Shown: positions 12,243 through 24,654 of the stretch, one piece after another
Position numbering within the stretch: the stretch's first letter is position 1
Layout: the number at the start of each line of letters is the position of its first letter
Origin: a virus
Reading direction: 5' to 3' (one strand)
IMG/VR virus record: IMGVR_UViG_3300034684_000217
Coordinates: 1-25,661 of that record
Length of the DNA stretch: 25,661 bases
Program-made: the position numbers and the translations under genes
The notes under the pieces: generated by a model
Told to the model about the DNA's origin: nothing
Database searches by the model: none
The model's input: only the letters and a program-made list of their open reading frames with translations

Positions 12243-13061
12243 ATGCAAGTATTCAGTTCCAAAGAAACAAGCGGGAAAATAATACTACTTGAGAATAAAA
12301 AAGCATCTGGTACAGGGATATTAAACGCAAAAAGCGAATTTTTTCAGATACCAAAAGGCTGGAAACTCGAACCATACACAGTCGTGAACTTACTTGGCAA
12401 ATACGGAGATTTTGAAGTGGATAGCGACGCTGATGGATTGGCTGATGGGTGGTCAGTTAGCAATGTGACCCTCAAAGAACTTGTAAGCGGAATTAATGGT
12501 AACGCTCAGCATATTTCACACACATATAATGGTGGAACACACGTACTAACAATCCAGTTCTATCCACAACAAGGTCATACATATTATGCAAAAACGGCAA
12601 TGAAAACTACGACGACAGACCCAGTTAAACCTATAGTAAATGGCATGACTGGGTCACTACAGGCATATCGTTTCGGATACCCAAATTATTTGTTATTTGG
12701 ACCTGAAGGTTATACAAATGTCTGGACTATACGTTCAGGGTATTACACAGAAACAGAAACGCTTGATTTCCGTGCACTTACTGTGTATATAGCAGCTGAC
12801 TTTGGTGGTGCAAACGTAGGCGAGACATACGAACTATGGGTTGATAACTTTTTGCTTGTTGATTTAACCGCAATGGGTGCTCTCCCAAGTGGGCTACAAA
12901 CCTTCTTCAGCGCAGCAGGTATTACAAAATGGGAAGAACTTGCTACAACAAGCAATATAACAGGCGCAGACGGAAGAACACAAACAGGTAAAGAATGGCT
13001 TGATTTGTTGCTGCCTTACGTTGATTCTATTGCAACACTTGGCTGGAAGTGGGGTGAGTGA
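12243..13061 (+). CDS. Tail protein with carbohydrate-binding-like jelly-roll domain
   Basis: Start ATG 12243 after GGAGGTGAATTGA. The 272-residue protein opens with QVFSSKETSGKIILLENKKA, which resembles the first strands of tail tube or tail accessory proteins. Residues about 50-205 look like a beta-sandwich carbohydrate-binding module: GDFEVDSDADGLADGW, then a Tyr-rich strand region, ending in the typical ELWVDNFLLVDLTAMG. The last 60 residues (GITKWEEL ... DLLLPYVDSIATLGWKWGE) resemble the closing segment of phage decoration proteins. It lies between the tail tube block and the chaperone genes, next to a second protein of the same style. Probable role: sugar-binding decoration along the tail. 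Domain call by eye, moderate confidence. Confidence 0.65.
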   Translation: MQVFSSKETSGKIILLENKKASGTGILNAKSEFFQIPKGWKLEPYTVVNLLGKYGDFEVDSDADGLADGWSVSNVTLKELVSGINGNAQHISHTYNGGTHVLTIQFYPQQGHTYYAKTAMKTTTTDPVKPIVNGMTGSLQAYRFGYPNYLLFGPEGYTNVWTIRSGYYTETETLDFRALTVYIAADFGGANVGETYELWVDNFLLVDLTAMGALPSGLQTFFSAAGITKWEELATTSNITGADGRTQTGKEWLDLLLPYVDSIATLGWKWGE

Positions 13062-13062
13062 T

Positions 13063-14235
13063 GTGGGCGTAGTTAAGATAGAAAATAGAGGGAAGAATTT
13101 GATTGATGCAGTATATTACGGAAGTGTTAGAGAGACAACAGGTGAAACTTTATTACAAAACCAAGAATATTCGCCAAATTATGCTATTGGCTCATATCAA
13201 ACACAGTGGCATGAGGTATTTACACAACCAATATATGTTATAGCTGGAAAAACTTATACTGTTTCATTTGAAATAGTTTTCAATCAGATAGGATATATTT
13301 TGTTGCGGATTTTTGAGTCTGATACTGAAAATTTTATTAATGGAAATGCTATTATTGCGAAATATATATATGATTCCGTAGTAACATATACGTTTACACC
13401 ATCAAAAAAATGGATAAAAATCGCAATGGCGTCGGGTACTGGTACAGTAATTTTTAAGAACATCCAACTTGAAGAAGGTGCGTCAGCTACACCATACGAA
13501 CCACCACTTGAGAACTACATAGATTTTAATCAAGAATTGTTCGGTTATAACGGTGTTTTTGACACTTTGACAGACGATGGAACATTGATAAAAAGATGGA
13601 ACAAAGAAATAGGAATAACAGTTTCTTCTGGTTCTTGTACTTTGGCAAAATCTGGAACAGGTACAGCAATCCTTGTAAACGAAATCAACGGTGAAGTTTA
13701 CGAAGGAACTGTTAGTGGAACAAGTTTATCTACTTCAGCACCAGACGGAACATACACCGTCATATACCAACTTGCTACACCAGAGATATCAACCGTTAGC
13801 TTCTCAGGAAGCGGACTTATCCTGGACAAAGGAGACAACAATATCATTCTCCCAGATTATGGTGTGATGGAACTCGAATACGAAGGAACAGGTACTTCAC
13901 AGGAAAGCTTAATTTACATGCAGGATTTACGCATTAGAGAAGAAGCTTCATACAGAGAGTATCAACCTGTTAATTCAAAATATACAAAGAGCATACAAAC
14001 GGGCAAGAGATATTCAATTAGCATTGGACAAGTCTATTTTGAAAGAAGCATGGCAGACAAACTTGATAAAGAGACACGCTTTACTCTGGAAGTTATTAAA
14101 CAAAACGAAGACGGTAGAACAGAAACAGATAGATACGTTAACTGCAGACTTGACAGTGTGGAAGAAACAGACAGCAACGGCCTTAGAATGGAAAGCGTTA
14201 GTATAACAGCTGAAGCTAAGGAAGTGGTAGCATGA
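13063..14235 (+). CDS. Tail protein with carbohydrate-binding-like and tube-like domains
   Basis: The start is GTG 13063, one base after the upstream stop, with GGGGTGA before it; GTG 13054 is the alternative. The product is about 390 residues. The N-terminal region has KIENRGKNLIDAVYYGS, a beta-sandwich, and the phage sugar-binding-module ending FKNIQLEEGASATPYEPP near residues 130-150. A second beta-rich segment (about 185-270) contains the Gly/Thr-rich SGTGTAILVNEINGEVYEG. The C-terminal 110 residues (YMQDLRIREEASYREYQPV ... MESVSITAEAKEVVA) look like a separate tail-tube-like barrel. The upstream frame is open for at least 60 nt before this start, so a split or fused origin with the previous gene is possible. 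It overlaps the next gene by 4 nt. Confidence 0.65.
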   Translation: MGVVKIENRGKNLIDAVYYGSVRETTGETLLQNQEYSPNYAIGSYQTQWHEVFTQPIYVIAGKTYTVSFEIVFNQIGYILLRIFESDTENFINGNAIIAKYIYDSVVTYTFTPSKKWIKIAMASGTGTVIFKNIQLEEGASATPYEPPLENYIDFNQELFGYNGVFDTLTDDGTLIKRWNKEIGITVSSGSCTLAKSGTGTAILVNEINGEVYEGTVSGTSLSTSAPDGTYTVIYQLATPEISTVSFSGSGLILDKGDNNIILPDYGVMELEYEGTGTSQESLIYMQDLRIREEASYREYQPVNSKYTKSIQTGKRYSISIGQVYFERSMADKLDKETRFTLEVIKQNEDGRTETDRYVNCRLDSVEETDSNGLRMESVSITAEAKEVVA

Positions 14236-15033: not shown

Positions 15034-15244
15034 ACAGCTTCTTGGCGGTGAAAACTTAATCAATAATGAAGAAGCTCCGCTGTTGTATGCAATATTTGAC
15101 CTTGCAGCTGAATATTGGAAAACTCCGTTTGTATTTAACACATTGAGTAAAATGTCAAAGAAAGAGCTAACTTTTTGGCTTGCATACAGAGAGTTGCGGC
15201 ATGAGTTGGAACAGAAGAAGATAAATGAAGCTTCAAGGCGGTGA
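15020..15244 (+). CDS. Tail assembly chaperone T extension, reached by +1 frameshift
   Basis: A frame +1 to the G gene is open from 15005 to the TGA at 15242-15244 and has no start codon with a ribosome binding site near its beginning. Read after a shift at 15019-15022, it gives FEEAKQLLGGENLINN, then APLLYAIFDLAAEYW and LTFWLAYRELRHELEQKK. This is a helical T-type domain ending exactly at the tape measure start. The joined helix IREDEF-EEAKQLL is continuous in style. The GT product would be about 217 residues (14590 to 15244). In lambda, G and GT are both needed in a set ratio. The coding potential and position are clear; the frameshift itself is inferred. Confidence 0.75.
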   Translation, partial: FEEAKQLLGGENLINNEEAPLLYAIFDLAAEYWKTPFVFNTLSKMSKKELTFWLAYRELRHELEQKKINEASRR

Positions 15245-15249
15245 GATAC

Positions 15250-18200
15250 ATGGCAGAACATACACTTGAAGGAAAACTTAAGCTTGATATTTCTAATTTT
15301 CAAAAGAACCTGCAAAAAGCAAGAGAACAATTTAAAGAATTTACCAACCAGATAGCAAAGATAGGTGCGGCATCTGCTGCAGCTCTTGCAGGAATTACAG
15401 CTGTACTCAAAAAAAGTGCTGATGCATACGCAGAACAAGAAAGAGCAGTAGCTAAACTAAATGCAGCTTTAAAAGCACAAGGCAGTTATACAGAAGCTTT
15501 ATCCAGAGATTTGCAAAACTTTGCTGCACAAATGCAACAAATAACTATCTTTGGTGATGAAGTAATAGAAGAAGCAATGAGTATGATGGCAACGTTTGGG
15601 CTTACTGGTGAAGAATTGAAACAGGCAACCAAAGCTGCTTTAGATTTGGCTTCTGCATATGGTATAGACCTATCAACGGCTGCATTTCTATTAGGTAAAG
15701 CTCATGAAGGTGTTACAGACACACTTACAAGATATGGAATTATTTTAGATGAAAACATAGATAAAAATAAAAAGTTTGAAGAAGTAATTAAAAGAATAAA
15801 CGAGAAAATAGGCGGGCAAGCTGAAGTTGTAGGAAATACACTTTACGGTGCAATGGAAAAAGCTAAAAACGCTTTTGGTGATTTATTTGAAACAATAGGT
15901 CAAATATTTGCACCAGAAATTAGAAAAGTTGCTGATTTTATTACAAACTTTTCCTTAGCATTCCAGAACCTTTCACAACCAAGCAAAGACGCACTTAAAC
16001 AATTAACATTAGTTGGCATTCAACTTCTAACGCTTGGTAGTGTTTTTGGCATGCTTGCACTGATGATAAAAGGCTTTGGTTGGACGTGGAGTACTATAAT
16101 GGGACTTATTACCAATCCGTGGACGTTGCTTGTTGGATTAATAGCATTGGGTGCTGGAATTATCATAACGCATTGGGACGAAATTAAAACAGCACTTCAA
16201 CCACTGTACGAAAAAATAGTTGATATTGTAGACAAAATAAAAGAAAAAATGACTGAATTTCAATCTGGGCTAAAAGAAGGTTGGAAAGGTACCTACGATG
16301 ATTTAAAATCCATCTGGGATAATCCAGATCTATCATTCCTGGAAAAAGTAGGTGCTTCAATAGGTTTAATTGCAAGCAAGATTTTTAATGGCGATGAAGC
16401 AAAAGGATATGAAGGACTTGGCACAATATGGAAAAAAGCATGGGACAACCTTGTTGAAGTGTGGCAAAATCCTGATCTTTCAATGTTTGACAAGATAAAA
16501 GCTACAATTGCAGGTGTAGCACTTGCAACATGGATGAGTGCAAGAACAATAGGGGCTGCACTTACTGATGCATTTGGTGGCGACGTAAAACAATATCTTG
16601 ATTCAGTCGATACAGCTTTAAAAAACATTACAACTTCCTGGAAGGATTTTAAAGAAGGAATTACAACAGGCGATTGGTCAAAAGCATTCAGTTCGTTCGT
16701 AGATCTTGCAAAAGAATTGTATAACTTACCAGCAACATTTGTATTAAGTGGGTTTAAACTTGCAGAAGATTTTGACAAAACTCCTCTTGACAACTTAGCT
16801 AATATGATTGCTACAGTTCTTGGTGCGAAGTTAATGACAGGAAGCTGGAGAATAGGTCTTGCTCTTGCATTGCTTGCTGATTTTGTGTTTGGCAGTGAAT
16901 GGACTGGAAATAAATGGCAAGATGAGTTAATAAAAGCTGCTGAATCTGTAGGATTCTCATTGTTGCTATTTGGCACTAAACTTGCAATACCGATAGGAAT
17001 TAGTTTGTATTTTATGCAAGACTTAGTTAAAGGAACTGGCAACAGACAAGCAGCCATGAACGCTTGGCGTGCATGGAAAGAATACATGGAATTAGGGAAA
17101 ACAGAAGTGTTAGAAGAATGGGCAAAGGAAACAGGAAAAATACCGATTACAGGTTTCATGTTTAAACCTTCAGAAGTTCAACTTGATAATCTTGCACAAC
17201 AAGCACTGGAAGAATTTCAAAAAAATTTTGATAACCTTTCTTTCTTCAATAAAGGCTTTATTTTGGGTGAAACTTTTGCCCTTGGGTTTTATTATGGTTT
17301 GCAAAGCTGGAGTACAAAGATTAATAATTACCTGGAAAACAGCTTCTTAGGTAAATGGATAGATAAGTTAATTAGCAATGGCAAAAAAACTGGTGGATTT
17401 GTAAATAAACATCCAGCAGGTGGTGGCAAAGAAACAGAAGGATTTTCTCAATATGCCGAAGGTGGATTTACTGGGATAGGTCCACTTGACGATATAGCAG
17501 GCGTTGTACACCGTGGAGAGTATGTTATCCCCGCCTGGATGGTCAAGAAAAATCCTGCTCTTGTAATGGCACTTGAAAGAATCAGAAAAAGGGGGTTTCA
17601 ACAAGGCGGCGGAGACGTAAATCTTAACGATGCTTTTGGTAAATCCCTTGATATGTTTGTAAACGTAATGGATGGACTTGTAAATACGTTCGAACCAATG
17701 GTAGATATATTCAACAAACTCATAGAAGGATTAAGTAAATTAGCTGAGAAATATGATTTCTTACAACCACTTGCAGAGCTCGGACAAACTGTTGCAACAA
17801 GTTTTGATGCAATGAAAGGAAGCGTTGACGCACTAAAAGAATTAAAACAAAACATGATAGATCTGAAAAATGCGGTGACCGGAGAAGTGCAACAAGAAGG
17901 AGAAACAGTTCCGGCTACACTGTTACAGAGATGGCAAAATTGGTTTGATGATCTATTTCAAACAGGGCAAGATAAATGGACAGAAGGCTTTGGAGAATTC
18001 TTCAAATTCCTTATGTCTAAGGGCGATGCATTTGCTACAAACGTAATTGATACAGTAGTTGTTGCATTGAACAATGTAAAATCATTCATTGAAAACTTTG
18101 ATTTTAACGCATTTGTTGATAATGTCAAATCTGGTGCAAAGAATTTCATAGAAGGGTTTAAAAATATCAATTGGAAAAATATGCTTTCAAACATGGGCAT

Positions 18201-18783
18201 GGGATTGCTCCAAGGAATAGGAACAATTGTTTCAGGTGTAACATATGGATTGGGAATGTTGGTTACTAGTATCATTTCTGTGTCTGATTTCTTTGCAGGA
18301 CTATCAAAGGCGTTAGAACCAATTGCTAACAAACTGAGCAAAATATTTGAAACAGTAGGATATTTGGTAGGGCAATCGCTCGCACCTATTTTAGAAATAC
18401 TTATACCAATACTTAACCATGTAGCAAAAGGCTTTATGATGATTTACAACATTGCAATTCTACCGTTTATAAAACTAGTAGCATCTGCATACAATGCACT
18501 TGCAAGTGCAATTAACGCTGTATTTGGTTGGCTTGGAATACGTCTTGAACTTATCAGACTTCAAAACATTGAACCACTTTCAATGGAAGAATACGAAGCA
18601 AGAAGCGAATTTGAATCTCCAGAAGGTGCAGGAAGAAGTTCTTGGAGTGCTGGTGGTAGTTCTACCGTATACAATTACATCACTTACAATATCACAGCAC
18701 ACGTGGTTGATGATGATGGTATTAAATGGCTTTATAATGAGCTAAAGAAATATGAGGCTCGACTAGAGGCAGGTGGTAGCTAA
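15250..18783 (+). CDS. Tail tape measure protein
   Basis: The start is ATG 15250, after AAGGCGGTGA, rather than the GTG at 15241. The product of about 1177 residues is the largest but one in the window. It has an N-terminal coiled coil (FQKNLQKAREQFKEFTNQIAKIG), a TMP-type core (about 75-180, FAAQMQQITIFGDEVIEEAMSMM), and hydrophobic membrane-like stretches near residues 251-307, 528-593, 990-1015 and 1036-1095. It also has the common tape-measure motif YAEGGFTGIGPLDDIAGVVHRGEYVIP near 734-760. A short repeat occurs twice about 49 residues apart: IWDNPDLSFLEKVGASI at 353 and VWQNPDLSMFDKIKATI at 402. It fixes tail length and helps carry DNA through the envelope. It follows the chaperone and overlaps the next start by one base. 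Confidence 0.93.
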   Translation: MAEHTLEGKLKLDISNFQKNLQKAREQFKEFTNQIAKIGAASAAALAGITAVLKKSADAYAEQERAVAKLNAALKAQGSYTEALSRDLQNFAAQMQQITIFGDEVIEEAMSMMATFGLTGEELKQATKAALDLASAYGIDLSTAAFLLGKAHEGVTDTLTRYGIILDENIDKNKKFEEVIKRINEKIGGQAEVVGNTLYGAMEKAKNAFGDLFETIGQIFAPEIRKVADFITNFSLAFQNLSQPSKDALKQLTLVGIQLLTLGSVFGMLALMIKGFGWTWSTIMGLITNPWTLLVGLIALGAGIIITHWDEIKTALQPLYEKIVDIVDKIKEKMTEFQSGLKEGWKGTYDDLKSIWDNPDLSFLEKVGASIGLIASKIFNGDEAKGYEGLGTIWKKAWDNLVEVWQNPDLSMFDKIKATIAGVALATWMSARTIGAALTDAFGGDVKQYLDSVDTALKNITTSWKDFKEGITTGDWSKAFSSFVDLAKELYNLPATFVLSGFKLAEDFDKTPLDNLANMIATVLGAKLMTGSWRIGLALALLADFVFGSEWTGNKWQDELIKAAESVGFSLLLFGTKLAIPIGISLYFMQDLVKGTGNRQAAMNAWRAWKEYMELGKTEVLEEWAKETGKIPITGFMFKPSEVQLDNLAQQALEEFQKNFDNLSFFNKGFILGETFALGFYYGLQSWSTKINNYLENSFLGKWIDKLISNGKKTGGFVNKHPAGGGKETEGFSQYAEGGFTGIGPLDDIAGVVHRGEYVIPAWMVKKNPALVMALERIRKRGFQQGGGDVNLNDAFGKSLDMFVNVMDGLVNTFEPMVDIFNKLIEGLSKLAEKYDFLQPLAELGQTVATSFDAMKGSVDALKELKQNMIDLKNAVTGEVQQEGETVPATLLQRWQNWFDDLFQTGQDKWTEGFGEFFKFLMSKGDAFATNVIDTVVVALNNVKSFIENFDFNAFVDNVKSGAKNFIEGFKNINWKNMLSNMGMGLLQGIGTIVSGVTYGLGMLVTSIISVSDFFAGLSKALEPIANKLSKIFETVGYLVGQSLAPILEILIPILNHVAKGFMMIYNIAILPFIKLVASAYNALASAINAVFGWLGIRLELIRLQNIEPLSMEEYEARSEFESPEGAGRSSWSAGGSSTVYNYITYNITAHVVDDDGIKWLYNELKKYEARLEAGGS

Positions 18784-19088
18784 TGTATTCAATCAATGGA
18801 AAACCACTTATTATTGAAGATATAAATGAAACACCTGAAATAATTGGATCATATGAGCGTGCTGTTGATGGCACGCTCATTTCTTATAAAGTAAACTCCA
18901 AAAGATCTTTCCATATTTCCGCTATCTTAGAAGAAGATGACTACAATTTTCTTAAAAGTCTTCTTGGAGGTAATGCTACATTCTACAACGATGGTGAAAG
19001 TGTAACAGTATACGTAGCAAAAATAAATGGAAAAAGAATCAAAGGCACTACTGTGTATGAAGTAACAGCAGACCTACTGGAGGTGTAA
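18783..19088 (+). CDS. Small distal tail protein, paralogue of the gene at 14232
   Basis: The ATG at 18783 shares its A with the tape measure stop. The 101-residue beta-rich protein (YSINGKPLIIEDINETPEIIGSYER ... NFLKSLLGGNATFYNDGESVTVYVAK ... TVYEVTADLLEV) aligns with the 114-residue tail protein upstream of the chaperone. By position between tape measure and hub it would be a distal tail (Dit-like) or tube-end adaptor, but it is much shorter than a usual Dit of 200-250 residues. A perfect 10-bp inverted repeat lies within the coding sequence (18853-18880). The hub gene follows after 3 bp. Confidence 0.65.
   Translation: MYSINGKPLIIEDINETPEIIGSYERAVDGTLISYKVNSKRSFHISAILEEDDYNFLKSLLGGNATFYNDGESVTVYVAKINGKRIKGTTVYEVTADLLEV
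18853..18880 (+). repeat. Perfect 10-bp inverted repeat inside a coding sequence
   Basis: ATGAGCGTGC (18853-18862) and GCACGCTCAT (18871-18880) pair perfectly around an 8-nt loop, followed by TTTCTT. It lies 70 nt into the small tail gene. The GC-rich stem is unusual for the local base composition and could act as an RNA processing, pausing or weak termination site before the hub gene. Confidence 0.6.
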
Positions 19089-19091
19089 AAT

Positions 19092-22000
19092 ATGCAGCTT
19101 TTAATCAACAGCGTTGAAGTTAAAACGTTTAAAATTACCGTACGAAATGAAACAGGTGGTAAATTTGAAGCGGTGGCAAATAAACTAACGGCTTATATTC
19201 CTATAGATAGTTCGGTAAATGTAAAAGATACGGTTGAAGTTCTAGATAACGGGCGATATGTCTTTCGAGGCTTTGTAGATAGCATTGAAAAATCCAATGA
19301 TATTATGCTTGTCTTAACTGCAAGAGACTTCGCAAGTGTACTTATTGACAAAGATGTTCCGAATAAGACGTATATTAATAAATCTCCAGAGTATATCATT
19401 CAGGACCTCTGTGCAGACGGCGGGTATCCAGGAAGTTTAAGTCTGATGAACACGGGAATTGTTTTCCCTGTGTTTAAAACATCTGAAGGTTCAATATGGG
19501 AAAATATACAGAATGTAGTCAAGCAAACAGCAGGACGTTTAAATGTGCTTCCTGATGGTACGTTGTATTATATAGCATTTGCATCTTCAAGTTATACACC
19601 AGTTGTAACTCCAGAAAAAGAATTAAACGCTTCACAATTACTTGATATCAAAAATGAAGTTGACAGTACAGAATTAATTAACAAAGTCAATATCAGTTTT
19701 GCTGAATTTGAGTTTGTAGATGACTCAATTGTATGGAAGAACGTAACCGATATTGAAGGAAATGGAATACTCAATGATGAAAACGAAGTATCCTGGGATG
19801 TAGGGCTCGTTCTTGCTGAAACTCATAAATTTGATGGCAGTAATATTACTCTAAAACATGTCCCTGTAAATTCTATTATTGCGGTATACAATGACACGCA
19901 AGAAACTAAGATTACTGATTTTACAATTGTTGACGCAAGTAAAGGTATTGTGCGAATTAATTCAGGTGCTTCAACAGATGATTCAATACGATTTATTTAC
20001 AGAGTAGATCCACCGCTTGTGCTTCAACTCAAATTTGAAAACAATACAGGCAAAAATGGAGAAGTAGTTGCCGTTCAAAATCCTGTGTTAAGTTATACAG
20101 TTTCAGGAACAACTCCAACATTGAGTTTAGATACCGAACCTGATAAAACGCTTTATCCAGACGCTGATGCAGTTCTAACAATAGACGGCTTCGATTCAAC
20201 TACAAGAATTCATAATCTAGAAGTACATGCAACTGTAATTTTAAAAAGAGAAAGGAAAATAGTCGACGTAGATGAAACAAGTGTACAGACATATGGGAGA
20301 AAAGAAGAAAGCTTTGAATTTGTAGGCATAACAGAAACACTTGCAAAGAAAATAGGCGACTATATACTAAAACGCTATGCAAATCCATATAAGAAACTTA
20401 CGATAAAAATACCATACGATGAAACATTACAGCTGTATGATGTGATCTCCGTACGTGAAGAATCCTGGACAAACACCGTAGCAAACTTTGAAATTGTAGG
20501 CTTGGATATTTCAGAAACTACACAAGGCAAATATATGACTTTGCAATTAGAAGAATATCCAGCTGATTGGTCGTTTGGTACCGGGACACCAAATACAGTA
20601 ATTACAAAGTTCGAACAAAAGACAATCCTATCAAATAACAAAGTCGCAAAACTGCTTATTTGGTATGCTTATCCTTCAAACATAAACGGCACATATGATA
20701 ATCAACGAGCAGGGAAAATCTTCTCGCAATATGATCTGGTAGTCTTTCCAGCAGGTCTAGAATTATCTACGCATCCAGACCATGATAATGCAGTTGAAAT
20801 TATAAAGTATATAAAGCAGTACAGCCCAACTACGAGAATATTTGGTTATATCCCTACAGGGAATAGAGGAGGGATTGATACATGCTATACGGTAGACGAA
20901 ATATATTCCAGAGCAAAGAAATGGAAAGATTTAGGAGTACATGGCATATTCCTAGATGAATTCGGTTTTGATTACGGCAACGATAGAACTAGACAAAACG
21001 ATATTTTAGACGCTGTTCATTCTCTGGGATTAATAGCGTTTGTAAATGCATGGAACCCAGATGATGTATTTGGCGGCACACCGACTATTCACTGGTTAAA
21101 CGGCATTGATTGGTATTTGCTTGAAAGCTTTGGCTCAGTTGCAGATGGAACTAATTGGTATTGGGTTTCAAGTGCAGATGTATTCTATAGAGCTTGGCAG
21201 GTAAAATATCAATATTCTGATTTCAATATAAAGGTTGCTGGAGTTGCAACGGCAAATACAGATGAAGAAGCAGAAACAGTCTACAAAATAATGTATGCAA
21301 TTTCCACAGCTTACGGAATTGACGCTTTTAACGTAGAAAAAGCTTATTACTATGCAATCGATGTCAACCTTTTAAGCATACCAAAACTACCTGATTATGC
21401 TGGAAATTATAAAGGCAATCCAGAACCTTTTGCCGAAACAACAAATTGGACTTTGTCCAGTGGTACAGTTTTAACAGGATGTGAAAGGCGTTATGGAAAA
21501 TCCGCAGTAGGAGACTATGATTTTGTTTGGTATGATGCAACTCCAGAGCCTGTATATATCTTTCTTTCAAACTTTTTTGAGTATGACAAGGAAAAGGGGA
21601 GTTTAGACTTATTCACCAACACAGGAAAGATCATTAAAGCAATTTCTGGAAATTCATTCACAGAAATAGACGGTGGGAAAATCACCACAGGAATTATCAA
21701 AGGGCATTACGATACGACAAAAATTGATTTGAATAACGATCTAATTGACGTAGCAAATGGTACAGTAAAAATTGGAAAACAAGTTTTAGATGATAATACT
21801 GATGGCATTTCAATCAACAATGGAAAAATTCAAATAAAGAACAGTAACAATTCAAAGACATTAATTGGAGCAGATGGAATACGTCAAATATATAATATTA
21901 GTTTGATTGACCAACTCGATTCAACCCGCGGTCTTAGCATTCCTATTTATATTCCACAGAACACAGACGGAACAGGCGTAACAAACGGAACAGCAAGAAT

Positions 22001-22706
22001 TATTGTTAATGTTGAAAAATACAGAGCATTTTCTAAAAGTGCATTAGATGGTGGTTCATATTCAAAAACACAAACATCACAAAATGCAGTTGCGCCTTGG
22101 GAAATGTTGCAAATTGAAACAGGATACGGTTTTCGCACTGATGTCGCTCAAACAATTTTAACCAACTCAAGTGGCGGAACGAGGACTACAAACACTGGAG
22201 GTTCACATAACCATGGAGGAAGCACTGGCACGAGTTCGGCTGGAACTGTCCCGAGTGGTTCAACTGGATTTATAAATGGCGGAAGTCCTGATACAGACCA
22301 CACGCACTCTTTGGTTACTGCTAATACTGTTCACACACACGATATTTCAAGATCTGGGGCACATACTCACGACGTAGATATAAGCCACGCACATACAATT
22401 GATGTATTACAAATCAACAATCACAAACACTTAGTAACGCTATATCTCAGCAACTTACAACACACTCATGATGTCACGATTTCAATTCCGGCGCATTCAC
22501 ATAATTTGCAATATGGTATCTACGAATCCACCGCAACCGCGACTGTTACAATCAAAAAAGGCACAACGACAATAGGAACAGTCACAACAGGAAACAAAGG
22601 TGATTTTGCGAATATTGCCGTGAATGATGGAGACGTGATTTCGATAACTGCCGATAATCTTGCGAGAGTTCAAGTTTATATTTTTGTTGAATATTATTTA
22701 AAATAG
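19092..22706 (+). CDS. Tail hub / receptor-binding protein with spherulin-4-like glycosidase and HxH fibre tip
   Basis: Start ATG 19092 after GGAGGTG. The 1204-residue protein has four parts. Residues 1 to about 505 are a baseplate-hub region (VFRGFVDSIEKSNDIMLVLTARD; late KKIGDYILKRYANPYKKLTIKIPY). Residues about 518-758 form a TIM-barrel-like domain resembling spherulin-4/GH135 and related GH114/GH166 galactosaminidases: LIWYAYPSN, YDLVVFPAG, RIFGYIPTGNRG, then VHGIFLDEFGFD with Asp622-Glu623 as candidate active-site acids, and IAFVNAWNP. Residues about 850-935 look like a fibre (EIDGGKITTGIIKG). Residues about 1037-1138 contain eight HxH motifs, as in metal-stabilised tail fibre tips. The likely role is host attachment combined with digestion of a surface polysaccharide. 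Domain order is clear; the enzyme's substrate is inferred from family. Confidence 0.8.
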   Translation: MQLLINSVEVKTFKITVRNETGGKFEAVANKLTAYIPIDSSVNVKDTVEVLDNGRYVFRGFVDSIEKSNDIMLVLTARDFASVLIDKDVPNKTYINKSPEYIIQDLCADGGYPGSLSLMNTGIVFPVFKTSEGSIWENIQNVVKQTAGRLNVLPDGTLYYIAFASSSYTPVVTPEKELNASQLLDIKNEVDSTELINKVNISFAEFEFVDDSIVWKNVTDIEGNGILNDENEVSWDVGLVLAETHKFDGSNITLKHVPVNSIIAVYNDTQETKITDFTIVDASKGIVRINSGASTDDSIRFIYRVDPPLVLQLKFENNTGKNGEVVAVQNPVLSYTVSGTTPTLSLDTEPDKTLYPDADAVLTIDGFDSTTRIHNLEVHATVILKRERKIVDVDETSVQTYGRKEESFEFVGITETLAKKIGDYILKRYANPYKKLTIKIPYDETLQLYDVISVREESWTNTVANFEIVGLDISETTQGKYMTLQLEEYPADWSFGTGTPNTVITKFEQKTILSNNKVAKLLIWYAYPSNINGTYDNQRAGKIFSQYDLVVFPAGLELSTHPDHDNAVEIIKYIKQYSPTTRIFGYIPTGNRGGIDTCYTVDEIYSRAKKWKDLGVHGIFLDEFGFDYGNDRTRQNDILDAVHSLGLIAFVNAWNPDDVFGGTPTIHWLNGIDWYLLESFGSVADGTNWYWVSSADVFYRAWQVKYQYSDFNIKVAGVATANTDEEAETVYKIMYAISTAYGIDAFNVEKAYYYAIDVNLLSIPKLPDYAGNYKGNPEPFAETTNWTLSSGTVLTGCERRYGKSAVGDYDFVWYDATPEPVYIFLSNFFEYDKEKGSLDLFTNTGKIIKAISGNSFTEIDGGKITTGIIKGHYDTTKIDLNNDLIDVANGTVKIGKQVLDDNTDGISINNGKIQIKNSNNSKTLIGADGIRQIYNISLIDQLDSTRGLSIPIYIPQNTDGTGVTNGTARIIVNVEKYRAFSKSALDGGSYSKTQTSQNAVAPWEMLQIETGYGFRTDVAQTILTNSSGGTRTTNTGGSHNHGGSTGTSSAGTVPSGSTGFINGGSPDTDHTHSLVTANTVHTHDISRSGAHTHDVDISHAHTIDVLQINNHKHLVTLYLSNLQHTHDVTISIPAHSHNLQYGIYESTATATVTIKKGTTTIGTVTTGNKGDFANIAVNDGDVISITADNLARVQVYIFVEYYLK

Positions 22707-23091: not shown

Positions 23092-23862
23092 ATGCAAGTA
23101 GCAACGTATGAATTTGAAGGAGAGTATATCGATATTTTACCGATTGGAGATTTGCATTTAGGTTCAGAAGAAAGTATGTTTGACAAAGCAGTAGAATTTG
23201 TAGAAAACAATCCAGAAGCCAAAATAATCCTTCTTGGAGACCTTGTTGACAATGCAATTGCAGAAAGTCTTGGAGATGTATACTCTCAAACTACAAATCC
23301 ACACGGCGCTTTGCAGGCAATTTTGGAATTTCTGACAAAGTATAAGGAGCGTATCCTGGGGGTGGTAAGTGGAAACCATGAAAGAAGAACATGGAGAAAG
23401 GTTGGAGTAGACCCAATTAGGCTTTTCTGCGAAGAATTACAAATCCCATATGCTGATGATTTATTGATCATAGATATAGGAATCAAGAACCACCAAACTT
23501 ACAGAGGAAGCAAGAAAAGAACACACTATGCAATAGCTTGCCATCATGGAGCAAGTGGAGGAAGGTTTCCAGAAAAGAGCATGAGACAACATAGATACTT
23601 CCAAACAATGGTATCAAACGTAGATATCTACATAACAGGGCATACTCACGTACCACAAACAAGCATGACGGCGGTATATGAGTATGACCCACGAAACAAA
23701 AACATAACGATAAGAAACATGCAACACATAACGATACCTGCTTGGACCGAAGAAAAATACGCAAGACAAAAGCTCTTAGCTCCAAGTGCTGAAACTGTTT
23801 TGATTCTCAGACTGTATGGTTCAAGCGTAAAACACCACGAAGTGTTAATGCAAACGAGGTGA
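23092..23862 (+). CDS. Calcineurin-like metallophosphoesterase
   Basis: The ATG at 23092 follows AAAGGGGG with 6 nt spacing. The 256-residue protein carries all five metal-site blocks of calcineurin-like phosphoesterases: GDLHLG (19-24), GDLVD (49-53), GNHE (94-97), CHHG (150-153) and GHTH (183-186). It should therefore be an active two-metal phosphatase or nuclease. It has no signal peptide and is probably cytoplasmic. The substrate is unknown. Phage members are usually found with DNA metabolism genes, so its place between tail and lysis genes, directly after a terminator, is unusual and suggests a moron or lysis-linked function. It ends 4 bp before the first lysis gene. Confidence 0.9.
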   Translation: MQVATYEFEGEYIDILPIGDLHLGSEESMFDKAVEFVENNPEAKIILLGDLVDNAIAESLGDVYSQTTNPHGALQAILEFLTKYKERILGVVSGNHERRTWRKVGVDPIRLFCEELQIPYADDLLIIDIGIKNHQTYRGSKKRTHYAIACHHGASGGRFPEKSMRQHRYFQTMVSNVDIYITGHTHVPQTSMTAVYEYDPRNKNITIRNMQHITIPAWTEEKYARQKLLAPSAETVLILRLYGSSVKHHEVLMQTR

Positions 23863-23866
23863 TGTT

Positions 23867-24142
23867 ATGAAAAAAGTGTGGAAATTCTTAAGGAAATTCT
23901 GGTGGTTAATCTTGGCAACCCTTGCATTTGTAGCGGGACTTTCTTTTAGAAAAGGAAAGAAAAATCCAGATGTTGAACTCCTGAAGGGGCAACGCAAAGA
24001 TTTACAAAAGGAAGAAGAAGAGCTTAAGAAAGAGCAGGAACGGTTAGAAAGGGAGGCTGAGGAAATTGAAAAAAAGCGTTATTTTAATGATCCTGTTGAT
24101 GCTGCTAACTATATCAATAATGAACTTTGCAAACGAAAATGA
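23867..24142 (+). CDS. Inner-membrane coiled-coil protein, i-spanin-like
   Basis: Start ATG 23867 after GAGGTGATGTT. The 91-residue protein has a basic N-terminus, one membrane segment (FWWLILATLAFVAGLSF, about residues 11-27), then a long, highly charged coiled coil (LQKEEEELKKEQERLEREAEEIEKK, residues about 46-70). This is the layout of Rz-type i-spanins, which span the periplasm. The 3' 77 nt overlap the next gene in another frame, again as in Rz/Rz1 pairs. The alternative is a generic membrane-anchored lysis accessory protein. Function is inferred from topology and location. Confidence 0.6.
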   Translation: MKKVWKFLRKFWWLILATLAFVAGLSFRKGKKNPDVELLKGQRKDLQKEEEELKKEQERLEREAEEIEKKRYFNDPVDAANYINNELCKRK

Positions 24143-24446
24143 ATATATGTTTATAAAACAAGCAACCGATGGAAGATTTTACATGGAAGAGAATACAGTA
24201 ATAGAACTTGCCAATTACATTAAACAATTAAAAGAATTAAATAACAACTACCTTGCACAAATAGAAAATCTAAAAAAACAAATAGCAAACTTGGAAAAAC
24301 AAATTTCTAATCTAGAAGAACAAGTAGCAATACTAAGCGACGAAAAAAGAAAGCTTGAGCTTTTGTTAAAAGCAGAAAGGTTTAAATCCTGGACGGTAGT
24401 AGCTGTAATTGTATTAGGTGCAACAGCAATATTTTTCATAAAGTGA
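24066..24446 (+). CDS. Exported coiled-coil protein with C-terminal membrane anchor, spanin-like
   Basis: The start is the TTG at 24066, about 9 nt after GGAGG; it gives an excellent signal-type N-terminus (KKSVILMILLMLLTIS). A later ATG at 24087 would lose the positive charges. The 126-residue protein has, after the signal, a segment DGRFYMEENTVIELANYI, a heptad-rich coiled coil (about 55-98, LKKQIANLEKQISNLEEQ), and a C-terminal membrane segment SWTVVAVIVLGATAIFFI. Topology matches unimolecular spanins except that no lipobox cysteine is seen, so it would keep an uncleaved anchor or use a normal cleavage. It is nested in the end of the previous gene. Spanin function is a hypothesis. Confidence 0.6.
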   Translation: MKKSVILMILLMLLTISIMNFANENEYMFIKQATDGRFYMEENTVIELANYIKQLKELNNNYLAQIENLKKQIANLEKQISNLEEQVAILSDEKRKLELLLKAERFKSWTVVAVIVLGATAIFFIK

Positions 24447-24456
24447 GGTGACACAT

Positions 24457-24654
24457 ATGAAATTAAAAAGCAGAAAACTTTGGCTTGCATTAATTCTAAT
24501 GGTTTTATTTACGGTACTTGTTTGGATTGGGAAACTCGGAGAAGAAAATTATATAAATGCAATGCTTTGGCTTTATGGTGTTTACTCTGGAGCAAATGTG
24601 CTAACAAAATTTACATTCAAACAAGAACCAGAAAGCAGTGATAAGCATGAGTGA
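24457..24654 (+). CDS. Holin-like small membrane protein
   Basis: The start is ATG 24457 after TGAGGTGA; the GTG at 24448 overlaps that ribosome binding site. The 65-residue protein has a basic N-terminus (KLKSRK), a first membrane segment (LWLALILMVLFTVLVWIG), a short polar loop (GEENYI), a second membrane segment (AMLWLYGVYSGANVLTKF) and a charged tail (KQEPESSDKHE). This two-segment pattern with charged ends is typical of small holins. It lies two genes before the transglycosylase and overlaps the XhlA-like gene by 8 nt. Holins form the pores that time lysis and release the endolysin. Confidence 0.65.
   Translation: MKLKSRKLWLALILMVLFTVLVWIGKLGEENYINAMLWLYGVYSGANVLTKFTFKQEPESSDKHE

Follow-up and report, generated by a model that had tools for sequence, protein, structure and literature searches.

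The window, that is, the whole stretch of viral DNA analysed here (25,661 nucleotides; positions 1 to 25,661 of record IMGVR_UViG_3300034684_000217), contains structural genes of a tailed phage, including those for the terminase, the portal, and the major head protein. The tape measure gene, the predicted tail hub behind it, and the two ends of this hub are located as follows:

15241..18783, plus strand: tape measure protein (PHROG and TIGR01760 matches)
18783..19088, plus strand: 101-aa protein between tape measure and hub (open reading frame without significant family match)
19092..22706, plus strand: predicted tail-hub protein of 1204 aa with the barrel inside (open reading frame, YqbQ-like N terminus, synteny with Marinitoga camini viruses)
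19092..20612, plus strand: hub base, residues 1-507, YqbQ-like at 27-147 (PF24032; match to the hub of Marinitoga camini virus 1, MCV1)
21633..22703, plus strand: C-terminal fibre tip, residues 848-1204, with His-x-His repeats (C termini of the MCV1 and MCV2 hubs; phrog_32822, phrog_4311)

The assignment of the 1204-aa protein as the tail hub is well supported by sequence comparison, because its YqbQ-like N terminus, both of its ends, and the gene order correspond to the hubs of the Marinitoga camini viruses. When searched alone, the N terminus scored 27.8 bits against the Pfam family YQBQ (PF24032; cut-off 27), so that both marks of a YqbQ-like hub, the N-terminal domain and the gene position after the tape measure, are present. 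Residues 4-299 align with residues 53-353 of the MCV1 hub (22% identity, E 4.5e-10), consistent with a homologous N terminus, and residues 848-1204 align with the C termini of the MCV1 and MCV2 hubs (46% identity, E ~1e-74). The hubs of both viruses likewise come after the tape measure in the same gene order, and as in the window they are followed, past one to three small genes, by a metallophosphoesterase. The window version of this enzyme (23092-23862; 'DNA repair exonuclease', phrog_7339) is 56% identical to that of either virus. The middle of the protein differs, as the MCV1 and MCV2 hubs lack a barrel and instead contain an Ig/fibronectin-like domain and coiled-coil-like repeats. Because these hubs hold other sequence at the barrel's place, the hub middle is, as far as the alignments tell, a slot for exchangeable domains. 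A run of His-x-His motifs in the C terminus (22240-22560), also found in the MCV hubs, possibly binds metal. Further downstream, an SLT transglycosylase (PF01464; 24897-25400; E 1.2e-18) is likely the endolysin.

The initial annotation had placed a glycosidase-like TIM barrel at residues 518-758 of the hub. The motifs on which it relied (LIWYAYPSN, YDLVVFPAG, RIFGYIPTG, VHGIFLDEFGFD, and IAFVNAWNP) are real; all of them lie in frame in the open reading frame 19092-22706 within this range, and the near-invariant residues in the alignment of homologues argue for more than a chance resemblance. The barrel proper extends slightly beyond the annotated range on both sides, and the exchanged DNA described below is longer still. 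The barrel and its two key residues are encoded at:

20634..21386, plus strand: predicted TIM barrel, residues ~515-765, spherulin-4/galactosaminidase-like (AlphaFold2, VIA-align, Spherulin4 matches)
20955..20957, plus strand: codon of Asp622, predicted nucleophile at the end of β4 (model strand 112-116; conserved in 18/19 barrels)
21123..21125, plus strand: codon of Glu678, predicted acid/base at the end of β6 (after model strand 168-171; conserved in 17/19)

Viral relatives of the barrel were collected in three IMG/VR scans and supplemented by one sequence from Bacillus phage KLEB27-3. With an alignment of 17 homologues, AlphaFold2 predicted a TIM barrel of alternating β-strands and α-helices (pLDDT 79.5, pTM 0.80), the fold whose absence had been named beforehand as speaking against the annotation. 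In model numbering, where residue 1 is protein residue 507, strands β1 to β4 span 13-17, 43-46, 76-82, and 112-116, and β5 to β8 span 142-146, 168-171, 208-215, and 239-244; helices lie between successive strands. A model computed from the single sequence was poor (pLDDT 50) and was discarded.

The barrel is part of a longer segment that recurs in another phage, at the 11-kb locus L002:

20632..21760, plus strand: cassette consisting of the barrel and a connector of ~100 aa (blastn, 90.4% gapless identity to L002 6002-7130)

Outside this cassette, blastn found a single match of 53 bp between the window and L002. At the left edge, identity drops from 0.83 to 0.23 between adjacent 30-bp bins, and at the right edge it falls over ~100 bp. 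The L002 protein has another N terminus, with a phage-tail-repeat match, and another C terminus than the hub. The terminases differ as well (best match phrog_38 in L002, phrog_10250 and phrog_2 in the window). We refer to L002 merely as a different phage, because an identity as a T7-like phage, considered at one point, was not supported by family searches and was dropped. These comparisons document an exchange of the cassette between phage tails, and the low dN/dS ratios between the two copies (0.19 across the whole cassette and 0.18 across the barrel) indicate purifying selection. From sequence, the barrel thus looks like a swappable tool for penetrating a host surface layer. In addition, three small proteins are common to the window (23867-24651) and L002 (7640-8667), with 20-46% identity and two of them coiled-coil-like; such distant sharing would be compatible with an encounter of these phages within a single group of hosts. 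When phage records were searched with the window by megablast, no relative was returned.

As the fusion is known from a single metagenomic virus record, it might have been created by an assembly chimera or a read mis-join, and the N-terminal part of the hub retrieved no relative from IMG/VR. However, 108 of the 1129 sites differ between the cassettes, mostly by synonymous changes, and therefore neither was copied from the other by assembly. Moreover, the reading frame is open across both joints, and the flanks match both ends of the MCV hubs in the right order. We consider an artefact very unlikely on these grounds and rejected it.

The conservation alignment contained 20 homologous barrels, 19 of which were scored. 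Residues G585, Y586, G590, G618, I619, D622, G625, R632, Q635, D673, and E678 are near-invariant, and Asp622 and Glu678 are both kept in 16 of the scored barrels, namely that of the window and 15 others. Enzymes of the galactosaminidase clan use an Asp nucleophile and a Glu acid/base at C-terminal strand ends, ~58-69 residues apart, and D622/E678, with a spacing of 56 residues, correspond to such a pair in the sequence and in the predicted structure. Published nucleophile and acid/base pairs are D189/E247 in Ega3, D156/E225 in TmGH191, D323/E391 in Env-GH191, and D157/E225 in FsGH114 (PMC12054363). The same source gives D160/E223 for PelA and Asp196/Glu222 for Sph3, where the number of the Asp may be a misprint. 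For PelA, we used D160/E218, which are 58 residues apart, because the hydrolase-dead mutant is D160A E218A (PMC12022489). The acidic residues expected by the initial annotation are thus present, but of its proposed pair, Asp622 and Glu623, only Asp622 can be retained. Glu623 is mostly conserved, yet the homologue L020 has Val at this position and keeps D622 and E678.

Three homologues are degenerate: L008 (8001-8789) has K622, N623, and E678, L012 (6001-6840) has N623 and Q678, and L019 (5905-6738) has N623 and T678, while all of them retain the fold signature. The phylogenetic tree unites L008 and L012 in a clade (99/99) and places L019 by itself on a long branch. It looks as if catalysis was lost repeatedly and the fold was kept, and because these proteins lost catalytic residues, the fold can evidently be maintained in tails without catalysis. 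By analogy, the barrel in the hub could be a non-catalytic carbohydrate-binding domain that serves for receptor binding only. We regard this as improbable for the window, where, as in the 15 other homologues, both acids are preserved, and where purifying selection acts most strongly on strands β4 to β6 (dN/dS 0.085 between window and L002, compared with 0.41 for β1 to β3).

The affiliation of the barrel was addressed by structure and sequence. Foldseek's order by itself was uninformative, with fucanases and generic TIM barrels in the lead at TM 0.4-0.6, and the structural ranking was based on a re-alignment of Foldseek's 1000 best PDB chains with VIA-align 2. The best six of these 1000 chains are all galactosaminidase-clan entries: the GH166 hydrolase domain of PelA (9cgy, Z 18.0; 5tcb and 5tsy, both 17.7) and GH191 proteins from Thermotoga maritima (TM1410; 9euz, 17.7; 2aam, 17.4) and the environment (9ep5, 17.0). 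The next chain is 9f9v (Z 16.3), and unrelated TIM barrels reach Z ~13-14, so that the clan leads by just 3-4 units, a margin of some use but no overwhelming one. Sph3 and Ega3 were not among the matches listed by either Foldseek or VIA-align. PelA, a periplasmic exopolysaccharide-processing enzyme, shares 15-17% identity over aligned residues with the hub barrel, which is known from sequence and model. The GH191 proteins, which are not virion proteins, share 10-12% identity as well as the barrel type and the acid pair.

At the sequence level, Spherulin4 (PF12138; grouped with GH135 Sph3) is the only Pfam family that recurs among the barrel homologues; it matches 14 of 17 at E <= 0.1 (best E 5.8e-5). 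The window barrel itself scores ~19.3-19.4 bits (E 8.5e-4 to 8.8e-4), under the curated cut-off of 30.2. In hhalign, the barrel profile matched a genuine Spherulin4 domain from a bacterium (L042; probability 83%, E 9e-6) with aligned D-E columns, and a DGIF.DE motif is common to both. The match to GH114 proteins was weak (probability 3%, E 0.015), with the Asp column aligned. PF03537 (GH114) had no match in the Pfam search of the window proteins, and PDB searches with the single sequence and with 6-row and 17-row profiles retrieved chance matches and no galactosaminidase. A three-stranded, substrate-binding insertion between β3 and α3 is described for characterised clan enzymes (PMC12054363). 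It is absent from the hub model, where 12 residues join β3 (76-82) and α3 (95-108); the corresponding stretch in GH114 proteins such as Ega3 (PF03537) has ~40 residues. The lack of this insertion, which also sets the barrel apart from PelA and GH191, precludes a claim of membership in GH114, GH166, or GH191; the Spherulin4 score lies below the cut-off, and the GH114 match is too weak to weigh in. Thus, of the original assignment as spherulin-4/GH114 type, the kind is supported by the Spherulin4 matches and the structural ranking, and the family membership is not claimed. The barrel would work like a clan enzyme and is not filed under any of the three families.

A glycoside hydrolase that shares merely the general barrel and acts on a different substrate, for example a fucan or a chitin-like polymer, has to be weighed here. 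GH168 endo-fucanases, which top the Foldseek list, come next by Z (~14-16, listed from 15.4), and a GH18-like protein reaches 15.3. Nevertheless, GH166 and GH191 rank above them, Spherulin4 is the sole Pfam family matched, and the spacing of Asp and Glu fits the galactosaminidase clan. Such a specificity is a serious but rather unlikely alternative.

Homologous barrels also occur in other viral tail proteins, identified as such by family match or annotation (L002, L005, L008, L018, and L023); the protein of L021 had no family match. Most of the barrel-bearing tail proteins (L002-L026 and the tail fibre of KLEB27-3) have both acids, the KLEB27-3 barrel and two others lack catalytic residues, and the hub N terminus was seen in none of them. 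Among 151 Chloroflexota genomes, the barrel profile matched solely the genome that gave L007 (5899-7065), a contig in an Anaerolineae MAG. As its sequence is the same as that of the viral contigs L003 and L004, L007 was taken as viral rather than as a host homologue; it probably stems from a phage whose contig was assigned to the bacterial bin. The one genome-wide scan, distinct from this profile search, used a single-sequence query, by which distant cellular homologues would be missed. In the literature searched, spherulin-type barrels are not described from phage tails, and we also found no description of a spherulin-4-like one in a tail hub. The location in the hub, correctly recognised at the outset, is therefore the part of the claimed novelty that holds, whereas spherulin-4-like barrels as such are present in many phage tail proteins, and automatic annotation in BFVD already gives certain viral proteins the name 'Spherulation-specific family 4'.

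Viral spherulation-specific family 4 proteins from the Atacama, with a mean length of 1265 aa, were read as sporulation or extremotolerance genes (PMC8269230). By this annotation, the barrel could have an auxiliary role and support the host in sporulation or stress tolerance. This is hardly credible for a domain that is fused in frame within a tail hub and has its relatives in tail proteins, and we rejected it. Conversely, our results suggest that the viral genes called sporulation helpers in that study may be tail enzymes.

A tail depolymerase is recognisable by a glycan-hydrolase fold with catalytic residues, in frame inside a virion tail protein, and the hub shows this combination as judged from its sequence and model. 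We consider it likely that the barrel, of the spherulin-4/endo-α-galactosaminidase kind, is a module with depolymerase activity on surface polysaccharides and that phage tails exchange it. From its place behind the hub base and ahead of the fibre tip, the module would use Asp622 and Glu678 at the host surface to cleave a polysaccharide, either a surface or an extracellular one, allowing the tail tip to reach its receptor. The exchanged unit, which also includes the ~100-aa connector, can be accommodated in a hub or in a different tail protein. A polymer of the GalN/GalNAc type is a first guess for the substrate and rather a doubtful one. Two further inferences of the initial annotation, a galactosaminoglycan-like layer on the host and heat stability of the enzyme, are not supported by the present results. 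T. maritima GH191 has the catalytic residues, yet showed no measurable activity (PMC12054363). At slightly less than even confidence, the barrels may represent a new phage-borne glycoside-hydrolase family of the galactosaminidase clan, which lacks the β3 insertion, is exchanged as a cassette among hubs and fibres of unrelated phages, and in some lineages has turned into non-catalytic binders.

Searches for phage depolymerases usually look at stand-alone spikes or fibres. A putative depolymerase built into a hub, with the same cassette in the tail protein of another phage, points to a route for the exchange of entry enzymes. Tail-associated lysins in hub or Tal proteins likewise place an enzymatic domain in the tail tip, but their fold differs; excerpts of one account describe those of enterococcal phages as acting on cell wall, teichoic acid, or polysaccharide antigen (PMC10194240). 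Provided that its members cleave galactosamine polymers, this family would also supply enzymes for use against Pel-like biofilm matrices.

In the structural cluster of the window, a protein encoded at 13000-14235 has weak CBM_4_9 and head-spike-fibre matches. Spherulin4-type domains are also encoded in Streptococcus phage VA460 (L046, 4809-6098), beside a lysin, and in Rothia phage Spartoi (gp21; L047, 4743-5831), after minor tail genes; both proteins are annotated as hypothetical.
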